Assembly (NCBI GenBank): GCA_026415355.1 | Contig: JAOAHF010000016.1 | Location: forward strand, 1 to 40,203 | DNA length: 40,203 nt | Direction of reading: 5' to 3' | Source of the DNA: Brevinematales bacterium | GTDB taxonomy: Bacteria; Spirochaetota; Brevinematia; DTOW01 | In this document: in pieces, positions 7,627 to 21,619 of the stretch | Numbering within the stretch: position 1 is the first letter of the stretch | Layout of the letters: each line of letters begins with the position of its first letter | The notes under the pieces: generated by a model | The model's input: only the letters and a program-made list of their open reading frames with translations | Told to the model about the DNA's origin: nothing | Databases searched by the model: none | Made by a program: the position numbers and the translations under genes

Positions 7627-8328
7627 ATGAAAATAGATTTTGAGTCTCTAAAAGCAGATGAGGTTATAAGGTGGGCTTTGAATGAATTCAAAGACAAGGT
7701 AGCTTTATCATCGAGTTTTAGTGCAGAAGATGTAGTTATAATAGACATGATGATAAGTATAGGTGAAGAGTTAGGTTTAAATCCTAATATCTTTACAATA
7801 GATACCGGAAGACTACCCAATGAGACCTATGAAATTATTGATAGAATTAGAGACAGATATAAAATCGAGATTAAAGTTTACTTCCCTAACTATAAGGAAG
7901 TTGAAGAAATGGTTAATAAATACAGAATGAATTTATTTTACGAAAGCATTGAAAAGAGAAAATTGTGCTGTGAAATAAGAAAGGTAAAACCTTTAAAAAG
8001 AGCACTCGAAGGATTAAATGCTTGGATTACTGGGCTAAGGAGAGAACAATCCATAACAAGAAAAGATATAAAAAAAGTAGAAATAGATGATATTCACAAT
8101 GGTATATACAAAATAAATCCTATTGCTGACTGGTCTGAAGTGATGGTATGGAATTACATCAAAGAAAAGAAACTTCCCTATAATACCCTTTATGACAAAG
8201 GGTACACTAGTATAGGATGCGAACCATGTACTAGAGCTATAAAAAGAACGGAAGACATAAGAAATGGAAGATGGTGGTGGGAATCTCCAGAACACAAAGA
8301 ATGTGGTATACACACTAAGAAATTTTAG
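7627..8328 (+). CDS. cysH: Adenylylsulfate (APS) reductase, thioredoxin-dependent, [4Fe-4S] type
   Basis: The 233 residues match the CysH family, which reduces activated sulfate to sulfite in the cytoplasm. The PP-loop-like site is SSSFSAEDVV (28-37), followed by FTIDTGRLPNETYE and ITGLRREQS. The paired cysteines C114-C115 and C198-x2-C201 form the CC...CxxC [4Fe-4S] signature of enzymes that use APS rather than PAPS. Cys226 in KECGIH is the redox-active C-terminal cysteine. No APS kinase (CysC) is seen, which agrees with direct APS reduction. It is the first gene of the run, 8 nt before cysD, with GAGG ahead of the ATG. Confidence 0.93.
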   Translation: MKIDFESLKADEVIRWALNEFKDKVALSSSFSAEDVVIIDMMISIGEELGLNPNIFTIDTGRLPNETYEIIDRIRDRYKIEIKVYFPNYKEVEEMVNKYRMNLFYESIEKRKLCCEIRKVKPLKRALEGLNAWITGLRREQSITRKDIKKVEIDDIHNGIYKINPIADWSEVMVWNYIKEKKLPYNTLYDKGYTSIGCEPCTRAIKRTEDIRNGRWWWESPEHKECGIHTKKF

Positions 8329-8336
8329 GAGGATGT

Positions 8337-9242
8337 ATGAAAAAGCACATAGACTATCTCGATTACTTAGAGTCTGAAGCTATATACATACTAAGAGAAG
8401 TAGCTGGACAATTTCAAAAGCCTGTTTTACTATTTTCTGGTGGCAAGGATTCTATAGTTCTGGTTCATTTATCCTTGAAGGCATTTAGACCTGGCAAATT
8501 CCCATATCCTTTATTACATATTGACACAGGACACAACTTTCCAGAAACAATAGAGTTCAGAGATAATCTCGTCAGAGAAATTGGAGAAACACTAATAGTA
8601 AGATACGTTGAAGATACTATTAAACTACGAGGTCTTGAAGATGCTACAGGTAAGTTACCAAGTAGGAATACATTACAAACGTACACATTACTTGATACCA
8701 TTCAAGAATTTGAGTTTGATGCTTGTATAGGTGGAGCTAGAAGAGAAGAAGAGAAAGCAAGAGCAAAAGAAAGAATATTCTCAATTAGAGATGAATTTGG
8801 TCAATGGGATCCTAAAAAGCAAAGACCTGAGCTTTGGAACATACTAAACGGTAGGATAAAAAAAGGAGAAAACGTAAGAGTATTTCCTTTGAGTAACTGG
8901 ACAGAAATCGATATATGGAATTACATACTAAGAGAGAACATAAAACTACCTTCTATATATTTTGCTCACTACAGAGATTGTATTGAATACAAAGGAAAAC
9001 TCGTAGCAGTATCAACTTTTATCAAGATCGATCCAAATGACAAAATAGTAAGGAAAAAAGTAAGATTTAGAACTGTAGGTGATATGACTTGCACTGCTGC
9101 TATTGAAAGCAACGCAGACACTATTGAAAAAATAATTGAAGAGCTACTCTCAACAAACACAAGCGAAAGAGGAGCAACAAGACTCGACGACACGATATCT
9201 GAAACAGCAATGGAAGACAGAAAAAAAGTTGGTTACTTTTAG
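8337..9242 (+). CDS. cysD: Sulfate adenylyltransferase subunit 2
   Basis: The small, catalytic subunit of ATP sulfurylase, which makes APS from ATP and sulfate together with the CysN GTPase. The 301 residues match the usual length (about 302). The ATP-pyrophosphatase loop SGGKDS is at 35-40. Further family blocks are HIDTGHNFPETIEFRD, CIGGARREEEKARAKER, PLSNWTEIDIWNYI and the C-terminal AMEDRKKVGYF. The ribosome binding site GGAGG sits 4-5 nt ahead of the ATG. It is flanked by cysH and cysN with gaps under 10 nt, so the three should be co-expressed. Confidence 0.96.
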   Translation: MKKHIDYLDYLESEAIYILREVAGQFQKPVLLFSGGKDSIVLVHLSLKAFRPGKFPYPLLHIDTGHNFPETIEFRDNLVREIGETLIVRYVEDTIKLRGLEDATGKLPSRNTLQTYTLLDTIQEFEFDACIGGARREEEKARAKERIFSIRDEFGQWDPKKQRPELWNILNGRIKKGENVRVFPLSNWTEIDIWNYILRENIKLPSIYFAHYRDCIEYKGKLVAVSTFIKIDPNDKIVRKKVRFRTVGDMTCTAAIESNADTIEKIIEELLSTNTSERGATRLDDTISETAMEDRKKVGYF

Positions 9243-9251
9243 GAGGGGTAT

Positions 9252-10490
9252 ATGCTAGAAGTTCTAAAATTTTTTACTTGCGGAAATGTTGATGACGGCA
9301 AAAGCACACTTATAGGTAGATTATTATATGATAGCAAAGCAATCTCTGTTGATATAATCGAAGCACTATCAAAAAGAGGTAACAAACCTCCTAACGCAAC
9401 CATCGATCTTGCTTTGATAACTGATGGACTTAAAGCAGAAAGAGAACAAGGAATAACAATCGATGTAGCCTATAAGTACTTCTCTACAAGCAAAAGAAAA
9501 TTTATGTTGGTTGATACTCCAGGACATCTTCAGTATACAAGGAATATGATAACTGGAGCATCTGGATGTGATCTTGGAATAATACTCGTTGATGTAAGAA
9601 ACGGAATGACAGAACAGACTAAAAGACACATGATAATATCATCCATACTTGAAATACCACACCTTCTAATATGTGTCAATAAGATGGATTTAGTTGGCTA
9701 TGATAAAGATGTTTTTGACAAGGTATCATCTGAAATAGTTGAGTTTTTTAGAAAAATTGATAAACACGAAATTACACTAATACCTATTAGCGCTTATCTC
9801 GGTGATAACGTTGTTAAAAGATCTACTAACATGCCTTGGTACAAAGGTCCTACAGTCTTAGAACTACTCGAGAATATCGAGATAGAATATGAAAACTTCG
9901 AAAAATCAAGATTTCAAGTCCAATACATCATAAGACCTAACAACATACAAGATTACAGGGGATACGCAGGAAGAGTTATTTCTGGAGTTTACAGAATCGG
10001 AGATAAAGTTAAAATACTACCAAACAACTATATTACAAAGATTATAAGAATAGAATCAAACCTTAAGGACGTTAACGAAGTAATCTCACCTTATAACTGT
10101 ATTATACACTTAAAGGATGACTACGACATACCTCGTGGAACATATATAGTAAAAGAAGGAGAAGAACCAATAGTGAGTAATGAGTTCGTATCATACATAT
10201 TTTGGATGGATGAAAGAAAAAAATTAGTCGAAGGTGACAAGTTGATTATCATGATGGGCACTTTAGTAAGCAAGTGTGTTATCAAAGAAATAATATACAA
10301 AGTAGATATAAACACTCTTAATGAAATACCTAGCAAAGAAATATCATCTAATGAAATAGCAAAAGTTATCATCAAAACTGCCGATCCAGTACCTTACGAC
10401 TACTATTCAGACCATAGATGGACTGGTTGTTTTATACTGATTGATGAAATAACAAACAACACAGTTGCCGGAGGAACAATCAATGGATAA
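9252..10490 (+). CDS. cysN: Sulfate adenylyltransferase subunit 1 (GTPase)
   Basis: An EF-Tu-like GTPase of 412 residues that drives APS formation by CysD. G-motifs are clear: GNVDDGKST (11-19), the switch region REQGITID, DTPGH (88-92) and NKMD (143-146). Beta-barrel domains follow (FQVQYIIRPN, YRGYAGRVISG). It is shorter than the E. coli protein (475) and has no fused APS kinase, which fits an APS-reducing pathway. AGGAGG precedes the ATG. Its last 8 bases overlap the next gene, suggesting translational coupling to the transporter. Confidence 0.95.
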   Translation: MLEVLKFFTCGNVDDGKSTLIGRLLYDSKAISVDIIEALSKRGNKPPNATIDLALITDGLKAEREQGITIDVAYKYFSTSKRKFMLVDTPGHLQYTRNMITGASGCDLGIILVDVRNGMTEQTKRHMIISSILEIPHLLICVNKMDLVGYDKDVFDKVSSEIVEFFRKIDKHEITLIPISAYLGDNVVKRSTNMPWYKGPTVLELLENIEIEYENFEKSRFQVQYIIRPNNIQDYRGYAGRVISGVYRIGDKVKILPNNYITKIIRIESNLKDVNEVISPYNCIIHLKDDYDIPRGTYIVKEGEEPIVSNEFVSYIFWMDERKKLVEGDKLIIMMGTLVSKCVIKEIIYKVDINTLNEIPSKEISSNEIAKVIIKTADPVPYDYYSDHRWTGCFILIDEITNNTVAGGTING

Positions 10491-11481
10491 ACATGTTATA
10501 GATACACTTCTAATTATTTTCTCTTCGTTGTGGGCTATAAACATGGGTGCATCCGGTTTTGCAGTTTCTTTCGGAACGCTTTATGGAACTAAAAAAGCAT
10601 CGTTTTTGGTTTGTGTTATTTTTTTCACTATCTTTATTGTAATTGGAGCAGTTTCCGTCGGTGAATATGTAGCAAAAACATTATCTTCAAAGGTCATACC
10701 TAAAGAAGTAATATCAAAAAATAGTTGGATTATTACTGTTGTATTATTTTCTGCAGGTATCAACTTACTCATATCAAACCTATTAAAAGTTCCATCATCA
10801 ACAAGCATAATAATCATGATGTCATTTCTTGGTGCAGGACTGTACTTATCCAGCTTGATATGGGAAACTTTTCTATTATCCATAGTAGTTTGGATTGCTT
10901 CTATGTTAATAACATACTTTTCAACACTCTGGATTACCAAACTATTCTATCCTCCAAGGTACGATAACCTTTGGTTATATCAAAAATTTGTAAATAGAAA
11001 GCATTTCTTATTCTGGATCGTCCTCGTGGTATCAATTTACAATGCCTACTCTTTAGGAACAAATAACGTAGCAAATGTAGTAGGTCCTTTCATTGCAATA
11101 TTTAATGTTGACATGTTTCTAGCTTTTGTATTGTTCTCTCTACTCTTTGGTGTAGGAGCATTAGTTCTTGGAAAGGGTGTAATAAAAACTGTTGGAGATG
11201 AAATAATACCAATAGGATTATGGTCTGCTACCATCGTATCAATTGTCACATCTACATTAACAATAGTTTCATCACTTTTAGGCTTACCATTTCCAACAGT
11301 AATAGTCGTTTCTTCATCTATAATAGCAATAGGAATAGTAAAAAAAGAAGTATCTCATTACTATTCCTTCAAAAACCCAATAACTAGAAAAATCCTAAGA
11401 GTATGGCTATTCTCATCTATATCTCCAACTATATCCACCTTTCTTATTTGCTTGATAATAGACATGGTATTTGGGTTATGA
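10483..11481 (+). CDS. cysP: PiT-family transporter, probable sulfate permease CysP
   Basis: A polytopic membrane protein of 332 residues with about ten hydrophobic segments in two homologous halves, typical of the PiT (inorganic phosphate transporter) family. The half-repeat signature reads GASGFAVSFGTLYGT in the first half and GTNNVANVVGP in the second; the first copy lacks the usual Asn-Asp pair. CysP of Bacillus subtilis is a PiT-family sulfate permease, and the place of this gene between cysN and a sulfite-reductase paralog favours sulfate over phosphate; that is inference. The ATG at 10483 is chosen over an upstream TTG because GGAGG (10470-10474) lies 8 nt before it. It overlaps cysN by 8 nt and the next gene by 4 nt. 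Confidence 0.85.
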   Translation: MDKHVIDTLLIIFSSLWAINMGASGFAVSFGTLYGTKKASFLVCVIFFTIFIVIGAVSVGEYVAKTLSSKVIPKEVISKNSWIITVVLFSAGINLLISNLLKVPSSTSIIIMMSFLGAGLYLSSLIWETFLLSIVVWIASMLITYFSTLWITKLFYPPRYDNLWLYQKFVNRKHFLFWIVLVVSIYNAYSLGTNNVANVVGPFIAIFNVDMFLAFVLFSLLFGVGALVLGKGVIKTVGDEIIPIGLWSATIVSIVTSTLTIVSSLLGLPFPTVIVVSSSIIAIGIVKKEVSHYYSFKNPITRKILRVWLFSSISPTISTFLICLIIDMVFGL

Positions 11482-13355
11482 AGAACAGTAACATCATCAC
11501 TGAAATAGAAAACTACATAAATCAAAGAACATCTCTAGAAAACTTATTGAAAACAACAAAGAAGTATAGAATACTATATAATGAAAACAAAAATACCTTC
11601 ACTGTAAAAATACCAACAAAATTCGGTAGGATCGAAGCTAATAAATTCCAAGATTTAGTTGTTTCATTACCACCTTCAGTAAACTTTATACACGTAACTA
11701 CTAAACAAAATATAGAAATACAAAACTTGTATATCATCAACCTTCTTGACTTTATCAAGAAACTAACTACTTTCAGAATCTTTCCTATACAACAATCAAT
11801 ATACGAATTTGTCAATGTCAGCTATCTATCAGGAATAAATCCGAAAGGACTATTCGACGTCATAGAATTTAGTAATAGTTTAGTTAGGATAATTGAAAAT
11901 AATTTAAGCTACTCATCCCTACATCCAAAATTTAGAATAGGAATATCAGACTCAGAAGAAGATTTAGCACTTGCTACAGTTAGTGATGTAGGATTAATAG
12001 CCAAAATTGATAAAGGTGTTAAAGGATTTGAGGTACTGATTGGTGGTAGCCTCGGTGAAATACCAACCAGAGGTAAAACAATCTACAAGTTCGTTGAATA
12101 TGATGAATGCATAACTAAAGCAGCAAGTCTTGTAATATATGCTTCAAAGGAAGGTAAAGTCAGGTTTAAAAATATACTATCTGAAAAAAGTATAGAAAAC
12201 ATTATACACAAATTAAGTAGCATCGAGAAAAGCTTAAAGATAAATATTACCAACTCAAACCAAAATGACTACAATTCCATAGGTAACTATCATAAAAATT
12301 TTACAATTAGACTACCTGAAAAAGAAATTAATACATTTAGAGTAAAAATTTTACTACAGAAACAGCTAGATAAATTTAGTATTGAATCAATAGCTAACAA
12401 TGGAGACATAGATGTAAACTTTGCAAAATTACTATCACACTTGAGTTTAAAGTTTGGAGATGGTAACATTATTTTTACAAACAGGCAAAATATTATCGTA
12501 CCTAACATAAGAAAGGATAAGATGAATAAAGTAATTAACATTCTTCGAATATTTAACATAAGAATAGATGATGATCCAAATTCCTATAGTATCGTGTCTT
12601 GTACAGGTACGTTCTCTTGTAATATAGCTATACTAAACTCAAAAATGCTGTCTGACATAATATCAAGAGAAATAGGAAATACAAGCAATTTAAGAATAAA
12701 CATATCAGGTTGTCCTAACTCTTCAGGACATCACCACTTAGGTGATATAGGAATTTTTACCATTTCTTACAGAAGAAATAAAATAAAAGTTCTATGTGTC
12801 GTAGTATTTAGTGGCTATGGTAAAAATGTAAAACTACCTATTGGAAGATCTTTTGCTTTAGTTGAGCCTCACATAGTACACAAAATTGTCAAAAACATAG
12901 TTGAAATGTATGAAAAATCTGACCTTAACTCGTTCCAAGATTTTGTTAAAAATAACTGGAAAGATATAAAAAAGCATATCTTCGAGCTTACCTTAAACTC
13001 GATGAAACACAAAAATACTTCTAACAACCTTATTTCTAATTCCCTTCCCATTAGAAAAGGAAGTAGTATTGATGAAATTTTTTTCACCTTGTTCGAACTA
13101 GAAATATTACTATACCGAAGTAAGATTAGAAATATAAAAAGTTCTTTTGTTTTAAACGCTATAAAAAAAATAACAAACAGATTTGTTAGAGATCTACCTA
13201 TTAAAGTAGAGTTAGATCTCGATGGTTTAAACGAGCAAGATATGCTAGAGAAACTGTTTGAGATTGAGGATATAATACAAAACAATATCGATATACTAGT
13301 TAACATGAATTTATCGGAGGTAAAAAATGAAAGGAATAGTATATATAGTTGGTAG
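11478..13355 (+). CDS. Sulfite/nitrite reductase paralog lacking the siroheme-bridging cysteine
   Basis: The 625 residues follow the two-half ferredoxin-like plus [4Fe-4S] layout of assimilatory sulfite reductases. The first cluster pair is present (C375-x5-C381, SCTGTFSC). The second reads GCPNSSGHHH, so C412 is kept, but the fourth ligand, which normally bridges the cluster to siroheme, is Ser416. Other active-site positions also differ from the full-length copy at 16012-18231: TTRQ is TTKQ (K76), the NTVRN arginine motif is lost near residue 113, and KFK is KFR. The reading frame is intact and tightly coupled by an ATGA overlap with cysP, so it is probably expressed. It could be a non-catalytic partner subunit. 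The C-terminal helical tail weakly resembles that of the other reductase. Confidence 0.85.
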   Translation: MKNSNIITEIENYINQRTSLENLLKTTKKYRILYNENKNTFTVKIPTKFGRIEANKFQDLVVSLPPSVNFIHVTTKQNIEIQNLYIINLLDFIKKLTTFRIFPIQQSIYEFVNVSYLSGINPKGLFDVIEFSNSLVRIIENNLSYSSLHPKFRIGISDSEEDLALATVSDVGLIAKIDKGVKGFEVLIGGSLGEIPTRGKTIYKFVEYDECITKAASLVIYASKEGKVRFKNILSEKSIENIIHKLSSIEKSLKINITNSNQNDYNSIGNYHKNFTIRLPEKEINTFRVKILLQKQLDKFSIESIANNGDIDVNFAKLLSHLSLKFGDGNIIFTNRQNIIVPNIRKDKMNKVINILRIFNIRIDDDPNSYSIVSCTGTFSCNIAILNSKMLSDIISREIGNTSNLRINISGCPNSSGHHHLGDIGIFTISYRRNKIKVLCVVVFSGYGKNVKLPIGRSFALVEPHIVHKIVKNIVEMYEKSDLNSFQDFVKNNWKDIKKHIFELTLNSMKHKNTSNNLISNSLPIRKGSSIDEIFFTLFELEILLYRSKIRNIKSSFVLNAIKKITNRFVRDLPIKVELDLDGLNEQDMLEKLFEIEDIIQNNIDILVNMNLSEVKNERNSIYSW

Positions 13356-14718
13356 TGGACCTGGAGACAAAAATTTGATAACTGTCAAAGGCGCTAAAAT
13401 TTTAGCACAATGCGATGTTGTAGTTTACGACTACTTGTGTGGTACAGATGTTTTAGAGCATTGCAAAGAAGAGTGTGAAAAAATATGTGCTGAAAGCTTC
13501 AGCAGAAATCACTCAGGTGATAGAATAACAAAAATGTACAAATTTATAATAAGCAAGGTAAAAGAAGGCAAGAAAGTTGTTAGACTAAAAGGAGGAGATC
13601 CATCAATATTTGCAAGACTTACTGAAGAGGAAAAAATACTTCTAGAAAACAAAATAGAATATAGAGTTATACCAGGAGTAACTGCAGGTTTAGCATGCGC
13701 TTCCTATTACGGTATATCACTTACTAGTAGACACAACTCTCCTAAAGTCTCATTTATCACGGCACATGAATCTCAAGAAAAATCAATAAGTTTCATTGAA
13801 TGGAACAAGATAGGTACTAACGAAACATTAGTTATATACATGGGTGTTGAGAAAATAAAAGAAGTTTCAGAAAACCTAATAAAAATATCAAAACTATCCC
13901 CCAATACGCCTGTACTGGCAATATCAAATATATCAAAACTAAACCAAAAACACATAATATCTTCCTTAGATAATATACATCTAGATGTTACCAACCACAA
14001 TATAAAGCCTCCCACTATATTCATAGTAGGAGACATAGTAAAAGATGAAGAAATATTAAACTGGTATAAAAGGCAAAAAAAAATCATCTTTACAGGAATA
14101 TCTGAGGAAAGATTCTTTGAAGAAGGAATAATTTTCCATATACCTATGGTAAAGATTGTTCCCTTGGATGATTATTCTGAACTTAAGATGTACATAACTA
14201 GAGTATCAAAAGGAGAATTCGACTGGATTGTTTTCTGTAGTAGATACGGTGTTCTATACTTTTTTAAATCTTTACTTGAAATGGGCTTTGATTCAAGGAC
14301 TTTAGGCTCGGTAAAAATATCAGCAATAGGAATGTCAACCGCAAATGCTTTGAAAAACCATGGAATAATTCCAGATCTAGTACCCCAAAATGAATCTTCA
14401 GAAGGACTTCTTGAAGCATTTAGAAATGTACCTAGGGGAAGAATATTTATGCCAAGATCAGATCTATCAGACAAAGGTCTAGGTAATGGTTTTAAAAACC
14501 TAGGGTTTGAAGTTGAAGAATGTATAGCATATAGAAATATAATGCCACAAGGTCTACCTGACATAGAATTCTCATTGATCGATGAGATAATATTCACATC
14601 TCCTTCAACAATAAGAAACTTTATCAAAAGGTATAATAAGATACCTGAAAATGTTAACATCAGGTGTATAGGCCCTAAGACAGAAAATGAACTAAGAAAA
14701 ATTTTACCTAATTTTTAA
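13327..14718 (+). CDS. cobA-hemD: CobA-HemD fusion: uroporphyrinogen-III C-methyltransferase / uroporphyrinogen-III synthase
   Basis: A 463-residue fusion for the middle of siroheme synthesis. The N-terminal SUMT domain (about 1-245) has VGSGPGD (8-14), VVRLKGGDPSIFAR, VIPGVTAGLACASYYGI and LTSRHNSPKV, and would methylate uroporphyrinogen III to precorrin-2. The C-terminal HemD domain (about 248-463) shows IIFTGIS, DWIVFCSRYGV, GRIFMPRSD, VEECIAYRN and EIIFTSPSTIRNF, and would cyclise hydroxymethylbilane. The fusion order is known in other bacteria. There is no precorrin-2 dehydrogenase/ferrochelatase domain. GGAGG at 13316-13320 sets the ATG; the start lies within the end of the preceding gene (29-nt overlap). 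It is convergent with hemL. Confidence 0.93.
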   Translation: MKGIVYIVGSGPGDKNLITVKGAKILAQCDVVVYDYLCGTDVLEHCKEECEKICAESFSRNHSGDRITKMYKFIISKVKEGKKVVRLKGGDPSIFARLTEEEKILLENKIEYRVIPGVTAGLACASYYGISLTSRHNSPKVSFITAHESQEKSISFIEWNKIGTNETLVIYMGVEKIKEVSENLIKISKLSPNTPVLAISNISKLNQKHIISSLDNIHLDVTNHNIKPPTIFIVGDIVKDEEILNWYKRQKKIIFTGISEERFFEEGIIFHIPMVKIVPLDDYSELKMYITRVSKGEFDWIVFCSRYGVLYFFKSLLEMGFDSRTLGSVKISAIGMSTANALKNHGIIPDLVPQNESSEGLLEAFRNVPRGRIFMPRSDLSDKGLGNGFKNLGFEVEECIAYRNIMPQGLPDIEFSLIDEIIFTSPSTIRNFIKRYNKIPENVNIRCIGPKTENELRKILPNF

Positions 14719-14735
14719 GACATGTAAGTTTATCA

Positions 14736-16031
14736 CTAAAAGTCTAATGAGAGCACTACATCAAGGGTTTTTTGTATATCTTTTCTAGTATGCGAGAAAG
14801 AAATAAAAAAAGTTTCGAACACAGACGGAGGTATGAATACCCCATTCTTCAGCAAATGATGAAAGAATTTTGAAAATAATCCTTTATCTGAATTTCTAAC
14901 ATCAGAGAAGTTCTCTACAGACTCACCCTGAGAAAAAAACACTGAGAAAAGACTTCTAAACCTATTAATTACTACCTTAGTATTTGAGTTTTTGAATTTC
15001 TTTGACAATATATCTCTAATACCCTCTACTAGATCTACTGAAATCGACTCAAGATATCTATAGTCTAGTTTTTTCAGCAATTCTAGAGTTTTAATACCCG
15101 CGACTACAGCAATAGGGTTTCCTGAAAGAGTACCAGCTTGGTATACTTCCCCCAATGGTGCTAATAATTTCATTATATCCCTTCTTCCACCAAAGCAAGC
15201 CAAAGGAAACCCTCCACCAATTATCTTACCAAGGCAAGTAATATCCGGCTTTATACCAATTATGTCTTGTACACCACATAAACCAAATCTAAAACCAGTT
15301 ATAACCTCATCAAATATCAGAAGTATATTTTTCTCTTTACATACTCTTTGTAAAGTTTCCAAAAATCCTTTCTTTGGTATAACTACCCCCATGTTAGCTG
15401 GAATTGGTTCTACTATAATACACGATATACCATCTTCTGTCTCAACTGTATTAAGAAACTTTTCTACATCATTAAACGGTAATACTATAGTATCTTTTAT
15501 TAGATTCTCTGTAACACCTCTACTTGAAGGTACTTGCAAATTCGCAACCCCAGAACCAGCTGAAACTAAAAAGTAATCTGCATGACCGTGATAACAACCT
15601 TCAAACTTTATTACTTTACTTTTTCCAGTAAATGCTCTAGCTAGTCTCACCGCACTCATACATGCTTCAGTCCCTGAATTGACAAACCTTATCATTTCCA
15701 TAGAAGGAATACACTCTGATATTGTTTTTGCAAGTATATACTCTATTTCCGTCGGAGCACCATAAGTTGTACCATAATAAATTTGTTCTTTAACTGCACT
15801 TATTACATCACTATTTGAATGTCCCAATATTAGCGCTCCCCAAGACATTACATAATCTATATACTCTTTACCTTCTATATCGTATATTTTGGATGACTTA
15901 GCTCTACTCACAAAAAAAGGAACCCCACCAACTTGATAAAATGATCTAACGGGGGAAGACACTCCACCTGGAATATATTTGTTTGCTAATTCAAATGCCT
16001 CAATATTATTTTTAGCCCATCTTTTCATCAT
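14736..16031 (-). CDS. hemL: Glutamate-1-semialdehyde 2,1-aminomutase
   Basis: A PLP enzyme that makes 5-aminolevulinate from glutamate-1-semialdehyde in the C5 route, acting after HemA. The 431 residues fit the family. Family blocks include YIPGGVSSPVRSF, NSGTEACMSAVRLARAFTG, KFEGCYHGHAD, IVEPIPANMGV and the cofactor site FDEVITGFRFG. The Schiff-base lysine is in CLGKIIGGGFPL, about residue 269. The 3' end is cleanly convergent with cobA-hemD. The start is uncertain: tandem GTG, GTG and ATG codons lie at 16040-16026. I chose the ATG at 16031, which overlaps the end of the sulfite reductase gene, so translation is likely coupled to it. Confidence 0.94.
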   Translation of the reverse strand: MMKRWAKNNIEAFELANKYIPGGVSSPVRSFYQVGGVPFFVSRAKSSKIYDIEGKEYIDYVMSWGALILGHSNSDVISAVKEQIYYGTTYGAPTEIEYILAKTISECIPSMEMIRFVNSGTEACMSAVRLARAFTGKSKVIKFEGCYHGHADYFLVSAGSGVANLQVPSSRGVTENLIKDTIVLPFNDVEKFLNTVETEDGISCIIVEPIPANMGVVIPKKGFLETLQRVCKEKNILLIFDEVITGFRFGLCGVQDIIGIKPDITCLGKIIGGGFPLACFGGRRDIMKLLAPLGEVYQAGTLSGNPIAVVAGIKTLELLKKLDYRYLESISVDLVEGIRDILSKKFKNSNTKVVINRFRSLFSVFFSQGESVENFSDVRNSDKGLFSKFFHHLLKNGVFIPPSVFETFFISFSHTRKDIQKTLDVVLSLDF

Positions 16032-18231
16032 CTTCACCACTATTTCTTAAGGCTTCTATTTTAAGTTCTGGAGTTAACCTTAGAAATGCTTTATCTACAT
16101 CTCTCACAAACAAAGAGACTTTATTCAATACCTCATTTGCTTTATATTTGTCAATCTTGTTTACATTCTTTATCCATTCTATCACATCTTCAGTAATGCT
16201 ATCGTACTCCCTAGGTAATATCCTATCAGGAATAATCAAATTCTTGTAGTTATCGATAATTTCTTCAGGAGTACTCAAATCAAGACCTTTCAAATACAAC
16301 AATGCTTTCATGCATCCTAAAACTGCATTAAATGACTTCTGGACAACTGTAGAAAAGTCTTCATCCTGTAAGTACTCTTCTGCTTCGTATACTTCCCTCA
16401 ATGACTCAAATATTGATATAGAAATTATATCAAGTAGACTACCTGCGCATTCTCCCCTTTTTGCTGCCTCCAAAACAAAATCTTTATTCTGTCCCCAGTC
16501 TCGGTAAAGCTCAGGATCCTCCGATTTAGGGTTAACTTTCGTAAGTGGTGATATTTCTCTTTTTATTACTTCAATATCAAATCTCTTTAGGAAATCTCTA
16601 AAGCTTTCTCCATCATTCCTATTAGATTTGTAAATCTCAAGTATTCTTTTCACTGCCATAGGAACTCTCTTCGAAGGAATCTTTAAAACAGCATTCCCTA
16701 TTATAGTATTCTCCTCATAAGGGTATCCACCTAAATACATAAGATAAAATGGAATAGTTCCATCACTACTATTCAAAGAATTTCCACTGAATCCAATATC
16801 ACCTATATGATGTTGCCCACAAGAGTTAGGACATCCCGATATATTTATCCTTATACCCATGAGATCATTAATCTCCTTTGATATAGTTTCTGCTAAATTA
16901 TATGGGTACGTTACAGCAAGTTTACACGAATACGCCCCAGGACAAGAAGTTATAAGAGGTAACGTAGAATCAGCCAATAAACCATATTCTTTAAGTTTAC
17001 CAAAAACAGCAGGCAAAAATTCATACCTAACCCAAGGTAATAAAATATCTTGTCTCTGTGTCATAACAACATAACCAGCACCAAAATCTTCAGACATTCT
17101 AGCTATATTTCTTAAATCATCAGGCTTAAGATTACCTAAAGCAATTCTAATAAAAACAGCATTATATCCTTCTTGTCTTTGTTCACATACATCATTCGCA
17201 AACCAATTCGAGTACTCAGGAGTTGTCTTTAGGGATCTATATTCACTAACAAAGGAATAATCAATATTCTGAACTTTTTTACCACCTTCCCTACCATTAA
17301 CAAATGGCGCAGGATGAGGAAAATTTGATATATAATTCTCAAGATCATCTTTTATGTTTATATGTCTCCTTACTCTTTCATACTCTTCAAAAACACGACT
17401 TCTAAACTCATCAATACCTAGCTTTGCTACCAAGAATTTTATCCTAGCCTTACTTCTTAATTTCCTTTCCCCTTCCCTATGGAACACTCTTATAACAGCC
17501 TCCGATAAATAATAAACGTTTTCTGTATCAACAAAATCTGTCAATACATAAGCTGGCATAGGTATCGCTCCCAATCCACCACCAACATAAACCTTAAATC
17601 CCTTAGTCTCTTTACCATCTATAACTTTCTTCTGCGCTATAAAACCAAGATCATGAATTCTTACCATACCCCAATCCTTCTCAGACTCAGACCACGCTAT
17701 CTTGAACTTCCTAGGTAATGTCAATGTAAGTGGATGCCTTAAAAAATACCTCGTCATATACATAGCATAAGGTAAAACATCAAATATCTCATCTTTAGAG
17801 ATACCAGTAAAAGGAGAAGCTGTTATATTCCTAACAGTATTACCACAAGCTTCCTTCGAAGTTAAACTTACCCTAGCCATATCTCTAAAAAGACTTGGTA
17901 TATCTTCAAGCTTTACATAATGTAACTGCAAATCTTGCCTTGTAGTAATATGAGCTACCCCACTTCCAGCATATCTCTCAACCATTGTAGCTACAGCTCT
18001 TAGCTGATTAGAATTTATTATACCTTGAGGTAATTTTATCCTAATCATATGCATACCTTCTGGATAGTGTCTCACACCATATATACCATGCATCAACCTA
18101 AACGAAAGAAATTTTTCCGGACTCATATTACCCGATAAAAACCTATTTATAACAGCCTCCAACTCCCTTATCTCAGACTCAATATCTGCTCCTTTATGTA
18201 TGTCAAAAATATCTATGTAATCCTCAACCAT
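16012..18231 (-). CDS. Sulfite reductase (ferredoxin-type), catalytic, with C-terminal helical extension
   Basis: The 739-residue siroheme/[4Fe-4S] reductase would turn sulfite into sulfide. Substrate-site residues are present: R98 in ITTRQD, R134 in GNTVRN, and K175/K177 in PRKFKIA. All four cluster ligands are present: C430, C436 (SCPGAYSC), C467 and C471 (GCPNSCGQHH), the last bridging to siroheme. The core ends near residue 570. A roughly 165-residue, mostly helical tail follows (blocks ECAGSLLDIISISIF, NAVLGCMKALLYLKGLD); similar HEPN-like tails exist on some reductases, but the match is by eye. There is no flavoprotein partner nearby, so ferredoxin is the likely donor. GAGGAGG precedes the ATG. 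It shares a minus-strand transcript with hemL. Confidence 0.93.
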   Translation of the reverse strand: MVEDYIDIFDIHKGADIESEIRELEAVINRFLSGNMSPEKFLSFRLMHGIYGVRHYPEGMHMIRIKLPQGIINSNQLRAVATMVERYAGSGVAHITTRQDLQLHYVKLEDIPSLFRDMARVSLTSKEACGNTVRNITASPFTGISKDEIFDVLPYAMYMTRYFLRHPLTLTLPRKFKIAWSESEKDWGMVRIHDLGFIAQKKVIDGKETKGFKVYVGGGLGAIPMPAYVLTDFVDTENVYYLSEAVIRVFHREGERKLRSKARIKFLVAKLGIDEFRSRVFEEYERVRRHINIKDDLENYISNFPHPAPFVNGREGGKKVQNIDYSFVSEYRSLKTTPEYSNWFANDVCEQRQEGYNAVFIRIALGNLKPDDLRNIARMSEDFGAGYVVMTQRQDILLPWVRYEFLPAVFGKLKEYGLLADSTLPLITSCPGAYSCKLAVTYPYNLAETISKEINDLMGIRINISGCPNSCGQHHIGDIGFSGNSLNSSDGTIPFYLMYLGGYPYEENTIIGNAVLKIPSKRVPMAVKRILEIYKSNRNDGESFRDFLKRFDIEVIKREISPLTKVNPKSEDPELYRDWGQNKDFVLEAAKRGECAGSLLDIISISIFESLREVYEAEEYLQDEDFSTVVQKSFNAVLGCMKALLYLKGLDLSTPEEIIDNYKNLIIPDRILPREYDSITEDVIEWIKNVNKIDKYKANEVLNKVSLFVRDVDKAFLRLTPELKIEALRNSGEDDEKMG

Positions 18232-18379: not shown

Positions 18380-18616
18380 ATGAACTCTGACATAACTGAA
18401 AGACTTGACCTAAAAGGGGTAAAATGTCCTTTCAATTACGTCAAAGCAAAAATAAAACTTAGTGAAATGAAAATAGGAGACGTACTAGAACTATACATCG
18501 ACGATGGAGAACCTATTAGAAACGTACCTAAAAGTTTAGAACAAGATGGTCATGAAATACTAGGGCTACAAAAGATAGATAACTTTTTCAGAGTAGTTGT
18601 GAAAAAAAGAGCTTGA
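18380..18616 (+). CDS. tusA: TusA/SirA-family sulfur carrier protein
   Basis: A 78-residue two-layer fold protein of the TusA family. The sulfur-accepting cysteine C16 lies in LDLKGVKCPFNYVKAKI, which is the family Cys-Pro motif at its usual place near the N-terminus. The C-terminal half (IGDVLELYIDDGEPI, FFRVVVKK) fits the second strand pair. TusA proteins relay persulfide sulfur. Here it sits divergent from the sulfite reductase and 1 nt before hemA-hemC, which suggests a role in handling reduced sulfur or in the assimilatory pathway rather than only in tRNA thiolation; that is inference. A GGGGG ribosome binding site precedes the ATG. Confidence 0.88.
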   Translation: MNSDITERLDLKGVKCPFNYVKAKIKLSEMKIGDVLELYIDDGEPIRNVPKSLEQDGHEILGLQKIDNFFRVVVKKRA

Positions 18617-18617
18617 T

Positions 18618-20480
18618 ATGTATTTTATCTTCGGTATAAGTCATAAAAGTGCAAGCATTGAAGTTAGGGAAAAATACTCAACAACTTCATCATTACTTGA
18701 TGAATACTATAGTAGGTTAAGTTTCATTGACGAGGTAGTTATTTTAAGTACATGTAATAGATTAGAAATCTATGGATATCTCAAAGGATTAAGCACTAAT
18801 AAAATTGATAACTTAAGATACAATCTATTTAGGATTTTTAACGTACCAATAAATGATATGAAAAACTTCTACTTACTCGTAGAAAACAACTGTATCCAAC
18901 ATCTATTTGAAGTAACAACAGGAATTGACTCAAAAATATTAGGTGAAACACAAATATATGATCAAGTCAAAAAATCTTACTATAAATCACTCAGTATGAG
19001 AAAAACTGGTTACTTCCTTAACAAACTTTTTCAAAGAGCATTATTTGTAGCTGGTAAAGTAAGAAATAAAGTATGCTTAAACGAAGGTAAAATATCTTTA
19101 GCAAGTGTTGTCAAGCAACTCATTTTAGAACATCTCAAAACCCCAAAAATTCTCATCATTGGAACTGGAGACATTGTACTCAATATCATCCCTTACATCA
19201 ACCAAATATCAAAAGAAATTTACATATCCTCAACAAAACATCATGACAAAGCAACTGAAATATCGAAGAAATTTAACACTAAAGTCTTAAAATTTGAAAA
19301 CATAAAAAATAGCTTAACCAACTTTGATATTGTAATAACTGCAACTAATTATCCTTTCCCCATAATAAGTGATGAAGATCTGAATAACGTTAAAAATAAA
19401 CTTCTAATTATTGATTTAGCAGTACCTAGAAACGTAAAAACAAGAGCTACTAAAAATAATTTAATCATCTACAACATCGATGATATTCTACGAGACATAG
19501 ATAAAAACTCTCATTCTAGAATTAACAAAATGTATTTAGCCAAAGACATAATTTGGCAGGAGGTTAACAAATTTATGTACAATCTAAAATGTGATCTAAT
19601 GAAAAGAAATATAGTAATAGGTAGTAGATCAAGTACCTTGGCCAAAAGACAAGTTGAAGAATTTCTTGAGAAATTAAAACTTAAAGTTCCATCTTTGAGA
19701 GTAAACTTCACAACTAAGTATTTTAACACAAGTGGTGACATAGATAAAAATACTCCTATATACAAAATCGAAGGTACAGATTTTTTCACCGATTTTATAG
19801 AAGAAGCTTTAATCAAAGGTGAAATTGATATAGCAGTTCATAGCGCTAAGGATCTACCAGATGTACACAAAGATGAAATCATAACGATCGCTCTAACAAC
19901 ATCTGAGGATAAAACTGATTGCCTAGTACTCAGAGAAGATTTAAGAGGATACAATATATATACTCTTCCAAGTGGCTCTATAATAGGAGTCTCAAGTAAA
20001 AGAAGGATAGATCAAATAACTTACATCAGACCAGATCTTATAACAAAAGACATAAGAGGAAATATTGAAGAAAGGTTAGAAAAACTTGATAGAGGCAAGT
20101 ATGATGGCATAATAATGGCTACAATAGCATTAAAGAGATTAAATCTTGAAAACAGAATTTCCCAAATAATATCAACCAATATTTTTGATACACATCCACT
20201 TCAAGGATCTCTTGCCATACAGATAAGAAAAGAAGATATCAAAAAGTTTTCATTCTTTATGAAAATAGATTCAAGGAAAAAAATAGCTTTTGACACAAAA
20301 AATATAGATCTTGAAAAAAAGCTCGTTGATTTTGTCAATAAGTATCTTTGGCAAAATTTCATAGCATTCTCAAGAGATTTCCTAAAAACACCAGACAAAG
20401 TTATCAAAGTCGATATTGATAATACTCAAGAACTTGATGTTGTTAAAACCAGAGACTACATACTAAATGTTATAGGTTAA
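18618..20480 (+). CDS. hemA-hemC: HemA-HemC fusion: glutamyl-tRNA reductase / hydroxymethylbilane synthase-like
   Basis: A single 620-residue frame joins two tetrapyrrole enzymes. Residues 1-325 are glutamyl-tRNA reductase: FGISHKSA, the catalytic C46 in LSTCNRLEIYGY, GETQIYDQVK (109-118) and a Rossmann domain (ILIIGTG, 178-184). The C-terminal dimerisation domain of normal HemA (about 420 residues) is missing. Residues 331-620 are HemC-like: IGSRSSTLAKRQ, VHSAKDLPDV with the catalytic D412, GVSSKRR and DIRGNIEERL. The third HemC domain is divergent. There is no GGCxxP and no cysteine after residue 435, so the usual attachment site for the dipyrromethane cofactor is absent. The gene begins 1 nt after tusA and has no clear ribosome binding site, so it is probably translationally coupled. 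Confidence 0.88.
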   Translation: MYFIFGISHKSASIEVREKYSTTSSLLDEYYSRLSFIDEVVILSTCNRLEIYGYLKGLSTNKIDNLRYNLFRIFNVPINDMKNFYLLVENNCIQHLFEVTTGIDSKILGETQIYDQVKKSYYKSLSMRKTGYFLNKLFQRALFVAGKVRNKVCLNEGKISLASVVKQLILEHLKTPKILIIGTGDIVLNIIPYINQISKEIYISSTKHHDKATEISKKFNTKVLKFENIKNSLTNFDIVITATNYPFPIISDEDLNNVKNKLLIIDLAVPRNVKTRATKNNLIIYNIDDILRDIDKNSHSRINKMYLAKDIIWQEVNKFMYNLKCDLMKRNIVIGSRSSTLAKRQVEEFLEKLKLKVPSLRVNFTTKYFNTSGDIDKNTPIYKIEGTDFFTDFIEEALIKGEIDIAVHSAKDLPDVHKDEIITIALTTSEDKTDCLVLREDLRGYNIYTLPSGSIIGVSSKRRIDQITYIRPDLITKDIRGNIEERLEKLDRGKYDGIIMATIALKRLNLENRISQIISTNIFDTHPLQGSLAIQIRKEDIKKFSFFMKIDSRKKIAFDTKNIDLEKKLVDFVNKYLWQNFIAFSRDFLKTPDKVIKVDIDNTQELDVVKTRDYILNVIG

Positions 20481-20662: not shown

Positions 20663-21619
20663 CTAAATCCAGCCAGGTAAATCCTTTGCCCAGTAAGATA
20701 TTATTATATCTGCTCCTGCTCTTTTTATCGACATCAATATCTCAAGAGCGGTTTCTTTCTCATTCAATATACCACATTGAGATGCAACTTTTACCATTGA
20801 ATATTCTCCACTCACACTATACGCCGCTAAAGGAATATTGAAGGTATTTTTCACCTCTCTGATTACATCAAGATAAGCTAAAGCAGGCTTTACCATCACG
20901 ATATCAACACCTTCTTGAATATCCCTCTCAACCTCAACTAAAGCTTGTTTTATGTTTCTGTAATCCATTTGATATGTTTTTCTGTCACCAAATTTTGGAG
21001 AAGAATTAGCAATATCTCTAAAAGGCCCGTAGAAGTTTGATGAGTATTTTGCGGAATATGACATTATAAGTGTATTATCAAAACCATTTTCATATAATAC
21101 CTTTCTTATCTCTCTTACTTGAAAATCTGCCATGGCCGAGGGTGCAACTATGTCTGCTCCCGACTTAGCATAATTTAGGGCAACTTTAGATAGTATTTCA
21201 ACAGTTTTACTATTATCTACTATTCCATTATCAACAATTCCACAATGGCCACTAGAAGTATAACTACATAAACATACATCAGAAATAACAATAACTTCAG
21301 GTACCTTGTCCTTAATTAACTTTATTGCCTTACAAACAACATTATTATCTCTAATAGCATAAGATCCTAAAGCATCTTTATTACATTCATCCACAACACC
21401 AAAAAGTATAACAGACTTTATACCAAGCTCCCATATTCTCTTAATCTCTTTAACAAGATTATCAACACTATACCTAAATATACCTGGAAAACTACTTATT
21501 TCTTGTATAATATTATTACCCTCAACCACAAAAAAAGGCATTACAAAATCATCTAAGCATATCTTAGTTTCTGCTATCAAATCTCTTATCCCGGAATTTC
21601 TTCTCAATCTTCTCATCAT
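20663..21619 (-). CDS. hemB: Porphobilinogen synthase (delta-aminolevulinate dehydratase)
   Basis: The 318 residues match HemB, which condenses two 5-aminolevulinates to porphobilinogen. The zinc-site cysteines C116, C118 and C126 are in DVCLCSYTSSGHCG. The Schiff-base lysines are K191 in SYSAKYSSNFYGPFRD and K244 in MVKPALAYLD. The C-terminal VSGEYSM and the IISYWAKD block are also typical. It uses the zinc-dependent cysteine triad rather than the Mg-type aspartates. It completes the set HemA, HemL, HemB, HemC, HemD and CobA in this region, which points to siroheme for the sulfite reductases. Two ATGs lie in tandem with no Shine-Dalgarno. The -10 box ends 9 nt upstream, so the mRNA may be leaderless. 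Confidence 0.95.
   Translation of the reverse strand: MMRRLRRNSGIRDLIAETKICLDDFVMPFFVVEGNNIIQEISSFPGIFRYSVDNLVKEIKRIWELGIKSVILFGVVDECNKDALGSYAIRDNNVVCKAIKLIKDKVPEVIVISDVCLCSYTSSGHCGIVDNGIVDNSKTVEILSKVALNYAKSGADIVAPSAMADFQVREIRKVLYENGFDNTLIMSYSAKYSSNFYGPFRDIANSSPKFGDRKTYQMDYRNIKQALVEVERDIQEGVDIVMVKPALAYLDVIREVKNTFNIPLAAYSVSGEYSMVKVASQCGILNEKETALEILMSIKRAGADIIISYWAKDLPGWI

Follow-up and report, generated by a model that had tools for sequence, protein, structure and literature searches.

The HemC protein encoded in the stretch of Brevinematales DNA analysed here (contig JAOAHF010000016.1, positions 1 to 40,203; hereafter the window) is fused to HemA and, as judged from profile searches, has lost domain 3 itself, beyond the mere loss of its cofactor-binding cysteine. 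It is probably the sole hydroxymethylbilane synthase (HMBS) of the organism, serving mainly the siroheme of the neighbouring sulfite reductases and working with no thioether-tethered dipyrromethane cofactor. In the textbook HMBS, porphobilinogens are condensed onto a dipyrromethane tied to a cysteine (Cys242/Cys261) (PMC8561815, PMC7242693). Movement of the tether cysteine makes room for the chain and is thought to drive elongation (PMC8561815), and the anchor of the human enzyme, Cys261, is intolerant of mutation (PMC10577081).

The fusion gene is composed as follows (window positions):

18618..20480 (+): HemA-HemC fusion gene, 620 aa; TIGR01035 and TIGR00212 both above cut-off
18618..19595 (+): HemA (glutamyl-tRNA reductase) part with the STCNR motif; TIGR01035
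19611..20240 (+): HemC domains 1-2; PF01379
19779..19781 (+): Asp388, E. coli position 60, Gly in canonical HemC and invariably Asp in the domain-3-less clade
19851..19853 (+): Asp412, equivalent to catalytic D84 of E. coli by alignment
20193..20279 (+): end of domain 2 and linker, HPLQGSLAIQIR...IDSRK, by alignment
20274-20276 (+): Arg553 of the clade-conserved D-x-R motif, in the linker after domain 2
20280..20477 (+): genus-specific tail without Cys, neither domain 3 nor recognisable CobA by profiles and structure prediction

The reading frame is open throughout, with no frameshift. The fusion scores 239 bits with the HemA model TIGR01035 (cut-off 209.55; residues 2-355) and 202.3 bits with the HemC model TIGR00212 (cut-off 164; residues 332-555), under which its automatic label is hydroxymethylbilane synthase. 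Pfam recognises GlutR_N, Shikimate_DH and Porphobil_deam (PF01379, E 1.5e-58, residues 332-541), and no match to Porphobil_deamC (PF03900) was found in the 620-residue protein. A preliminary description of this DNA had reported that domains 1-2 retain D412, SSKRR and DIRGNIEERL; all were found there, D412 corresponding to E. coli D84, and equivalents of R11, K83, S129, R131, R132, R149, R155 and R176 are kept as well. It was also right that no cysteine follows HPLQGSLAIQIR (20193-20228), the remaining 83 residues of the open frame containing none. The cysteine-less region had, however, been taken for domain 3, and this identification fails: PF03900 does not match, a profile comparison of the tail with spirochaete and E. 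coli domain 3 gave no support, and the domain is missing as a whole.

Two ways out had been proposed: a new mode of cofactor binding, or the existence of another HemC. The latter is contradicted by the genome to which the window belongs (1.76 Mb, 96.8% complete), in which a six-frame search placed PF01379 at a single locus, the window HemC, and yielded nothing for PF03900 at E<=10, so there is no free domain 3; the 13 further genomes described below gave a like result. As a positive control, the PF01379 and PF03900 searches matched in 11-12 of 14 control genomes. A frameshift concealing the GGC motif is ruled out by the identical layout in three species of the genus. The former proposal is taken up, in a wider form, with the residue comparison below.

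When modelled alone, the tail is predicted to form a beta-beta-alpha-beta-beta-alpha unit (pLDDT 76), for which no PDB match with E<=0.001 was found. AlphaFold, given only two aligned sequences, modelled the HemC half poorly (pLDDT 40), and no meaning attaches to the PDB matches of that model. The tail is 46-57% identical among the three congeners, one of which (L008) has a single Cys near its extreme end, in PDCANIK and outside any GGC motif. A remnant of CobA or a degenerate domain 3 was considered as the source of the tail and found no support in profile comparison.

To place the window protein among its relatives, 393 spirochaete genomes, most of them draft assemblies, were surveyed with the NCBI 241-position HMBS model, and the HemC frames were extracted and read. 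A HemC is carried by 116 of the 393, and nearly all of these proteins have domain 3 with its G-C motif cysteine. Domains 1-2 only are found in 14 genomes from eight family-level groups, three of them single-contig assemblies (G006, G023, G062), and PF03900 was found nowhere in any of the 14. The HemA-HemC fusion with a Cys-poor tail recurs in two congeners (G002/L008=L025 and G003/L007). In ten cases HemC is joined straight to CobA-HemD (L012, L033, L030, L013, L015, L017, L016, L018, L020 and L028; PF01379-PF00590-PF02602 architecture confirmed by Pfam for L028, L013 and L020), CobA beginning directly after the D-x-R motif, and in L038 the short HemC is followed by other sequence. Since two congeners and 11 more genomes are without domain 3, this layout is neither chance nor sequencing error.

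In a tree of domains 1-2 with 109 rows, a single branch (SH-aLRT 96) separates the short sequences from the rest, and a careful tree of 39 rows gives the short clade a bootstrap of 98 and an SH-aLRT of 94; the tree is unrooted and its deep branches, being weak, do not fix the point at which the clade attaches. Because most other HemCs have domain 3, its loss is the simpler reading of this unrooted tree. Within the genus, HemC domains 1-2 are 74-78% identical among the three congeners with pN/pS of 0.20-0.27, compared with 47-52% and 0.38-0.41 for the fused HemA part, dS being near saturation so that the pN/pS values are indicative only. Constraint on the fusion is thus strongest in domains 1-2 of HemC, which are under purifying selection. 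That a domain found in nearly all HemCs should be missing might point to a decaying gene or an assembly artefact, which we consider extremely improbable given that the same structure, under strong constraint, occurs in 14 genomes (three single-contig) that form one clade.

Several further loci were seen in the survey. G162 alone among the short-HemC genomes has an extra HemC paralogue: beside its short HemC stands a second, full-length HemC-like protein (L128; contig C10, minus strand, frame from 304) without the HSxKD catalytic motif and without the cysteine loop, which looks like a degenerate or repurposed copy. Outside the short clade, a HemC-HemD protein of G028 (L011) reads GIG, not GGC, in its domain-3-like stretch, and PF03900 is not recognised in it; it has possibly lost the anchor independently or uses a nearby Cys (VPCAGQG). 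A scan of viral contigs gave nothing, a scan of genome contigs returned a single congeneric locus as its only match, and among plasmid records the best matches, going by their annotation, were hemC genes and adjacent hemC-cobA genes with separate annotations.

The 14 short sequences were aligned with 15 canonical spirochaete sequences and that of E. coli. Residues R11, H80, S81, K83, D84, S129, R132, R149, R155, R176 and Q198 are invariant in short and canonical proteins alike, and Q19 is likewise kept by the short clade without exception. Specific to the clade are G60D, M82A and G173A (each 14/14), further changes being Y22E (13/14), T154E (12/14) and G197L (13/14), and 13 of the 14 carry the D-x-R motif just after domain 2 (R222). 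K59 is missing in all short sequences and R101 in 13, while R131 is replaced in 5 of the 13 readable there (L013, L015, L016, L018 and L038; L017 is masked). In the human enzyme, Ser75 and Lys74 (E. coli 60 and 59) touch the acetate group on ring C2 of the cofactor, Ser75 doing so in ES2 (PMC7907807), and E. coli R131L or R132L variants are unable to bind cofactor (PMC3945110). In human HMBS a salt bridge links Arg116 (E. coli 101) with Glu250 (PMC10577081), a residue beyond domains 1-2 which by numbering equals E. coli 231 in domain 3. The loss of R101 therefore fits that of domain 3.

No cysteine is common to the short clade, some members having one in domains 1-2 at unrelated positions, which argues against any one clade-wide replacement anchor; a replacement private to the window genus, in KCDLM or TDCLV, would be compatible with the alignment. 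For the same reason the proposal of a new binding mode needs widening, to include a cofactor that is bound non-covalently or one that the enzyme can do without. We regard it as rather unlikely that the cofactor is still covalently attached to another residue, for instance the KCDLM Cys before the HemC domain, that of TDCLV, or the carboxylate of a residue like Asp60. Both cysteines are shared by all three congeners, the cofactor-binding arginines are retained, and Asp60, invariant in the clade, stands where human Ser75 reaches the acetate of the cofactor in ES2 (PMC7907807), but such an attachment has to contend with the lack of a clade-wide Cys, the loss of K59 and the loss of R131 in a sub-branch. 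An anchor provided in trans or by a replacement domain, i.e. the tail, CobA or HemD, or an unrecognised small protein, seems very unlikely to us. CobA-HemD does occupy the exact place of domain 3 in relatives, and the tail of the window genus is conserved and predicted to fold (pLDDT 76); against this, the tail has no Cys, shows no sequence relationship to CobA or domain 3 and matches no PDB fold, and the 14 genomes are without PF03900.

The probable role of the short HemC as sole HMBS is suggested by its surroundings in the window:

7627-11481: sulfate-assimilation genes, assigned by reading
11403-13355: siroheme-reductase-like protein with two NIR_SIR halves
13327..14718 (+): CobA-HemD fusion (uroporphyrinogen-III synthase and methyltransferase), the step after HemC
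14736..16040 (-): HemL
16012..18231 (-): siroheme sulfite/nitrite-reductase-like protein with two NIR_SIR halves
18380-18616: TusA-family protein (PF01206, E 2.4e-19)
20663..21619 (-): HemB (porphobilinogen synthase), the step before HemC

The cluster thus supplies the steps on either side, HemB before and HemD after, and leaves a gap that only the short HemC can fill; it is the only protein seen that could bridge the two. From this we infer that the short HemC is catalytically active as a hydroxymethylbilane synthase. HemB and NIR_SIR are each present in all 14 short-HemC genomes, one or both of them on the hemC contig in 12, and NIR_SIR was found in none of 20 HemC-less relatives, one of them a congener (G001). 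As the UROD family was not found in 11 of the 14 genomes, nor CbiD in 13, siroheme is the only visible use of uroporphyrinogen III in most of them. An enzyme that is no longer an HMBS, putting porphobilinogen to another use or making a short oligopyrrole while the tetrapyrrole is formed otherwise, would agree with the M82A, G173A, L169 and A172 changes, which lie among the pyrrole-chain contacts seen in simulations (PMC3945110). We give this little credence, given that HemB upstream and HemD downstream in the cluster leave a gap for the short HemC alone and that its presence tracks the siroheme reductases.

The two siroheme-reductase-like proteins (11403-13355 and 16012-18231) differ from each other, and each scores far under the cut-offs of the NirA/CysI models. 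The TusA gene lies directly upstream of hemA-hemC and beside a sulfite reductase gene. One short-HemC genome encodes a strong uroporphyrinogen decarboxylase match (G381:C29:8259-9275, E 5e-122), and its short HemC might also feed heme synthesis.

If the short HemC acts as an HMBS with no thioether tether, four porphobilinogens would be joined in the cleft between domains 1 and 2 on an untethered primer. This could be a free di- or tetrapyrrole tightly bound by the retained arginines. Alternatively, the first porphobilinogen might itself be the starter, Asp60 possibly pairing with its aminomethyl end, and the product, an aminomethyl- or hydroxymethylbilane, would be passed on to HemD. The tetrapyrrole would in either case be handed to HemD, which in most relatives is on the same chain as HemC, and such a fusion would suit an unstable, untethered intermediate. 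A slow enzyme would presumably suffice, siroheme being needed in small amounts. Only tentatively do we propose the stronger form, in which no covalent dipyrromethane is needed at all and the chain would start on free porphobilinogen or a loosely held oligopyrrole, with Asp60 gripping the aminomethyl group. The loss of R101 in 13 of the 14 and the replacement of R131 in five speak for an enzyme with no tether. R132, R149 and R155 are kept, and R131 too in the window protein, so that a dipyrromethane may still be bound; this counts against the untethered reading in general, as do the mutational intolerance of human Cys261 and the presumed part of tether movement in elongation.

Compared with canonical HemC (TIGR00212; PF01379 and PF03900; E. 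coli, B. megaterium and human structures), the window protein shares domains 1-2, the core catalytic and substrate-binding residues and the place in the pathway between HemB and HemD. It differs in having no domain 3 and no GGC cysteine, two features that define the family, and in its fusion to HemA, and its clade in G60D, M82A and G173A and the absence of K59 and (13/14) R101. The 241-position HMBS model of the survey, NF002202 (PRK01066.1), which we take to be built on chlamydial proteins, ends where the window HemC domains end (matched over 16-235 of 241); with 191 bits the window protein falls short of the curated cut-off (251) and is not a member, and it adds HemA and the tail. Within the phylum, most of the sequences that score highest with NF002202 belong to the short spirochaete clade. 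Bifunctional HemC-HemD proteins of spirochaetes, presumably of the Leptospira type, belong to the same phylum and likewise join HemC to another pathway enzyme; unlike the window protein, the longer HemC-HemD frames of the survey (e.g. L019, L021) keep domain 3 and a GGGC cysteine. Given that NF002202 stops at this very point, databases probably contain short HemCs already; what is new is the recognition that HemCs without a cofactor anchor form a coherent clade. No description of an HMBS lacking the cysteine or domain 3 was found in the literature searched, mostly outside subscription journals.

To our knowledge, all cells are described as counting four porphobilinogens by means of a covalently tethered dipyrromethane. 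If the tentative cofactor-free form of the enzyme is correct, the tethered-primer rule would have its first working exception. A natural tether-less clade would make it testable whether the tether serves the chemistry, the counting to four, or only speed, and it may provide a minimal two-domain enzyme for making tetrapyrroles.
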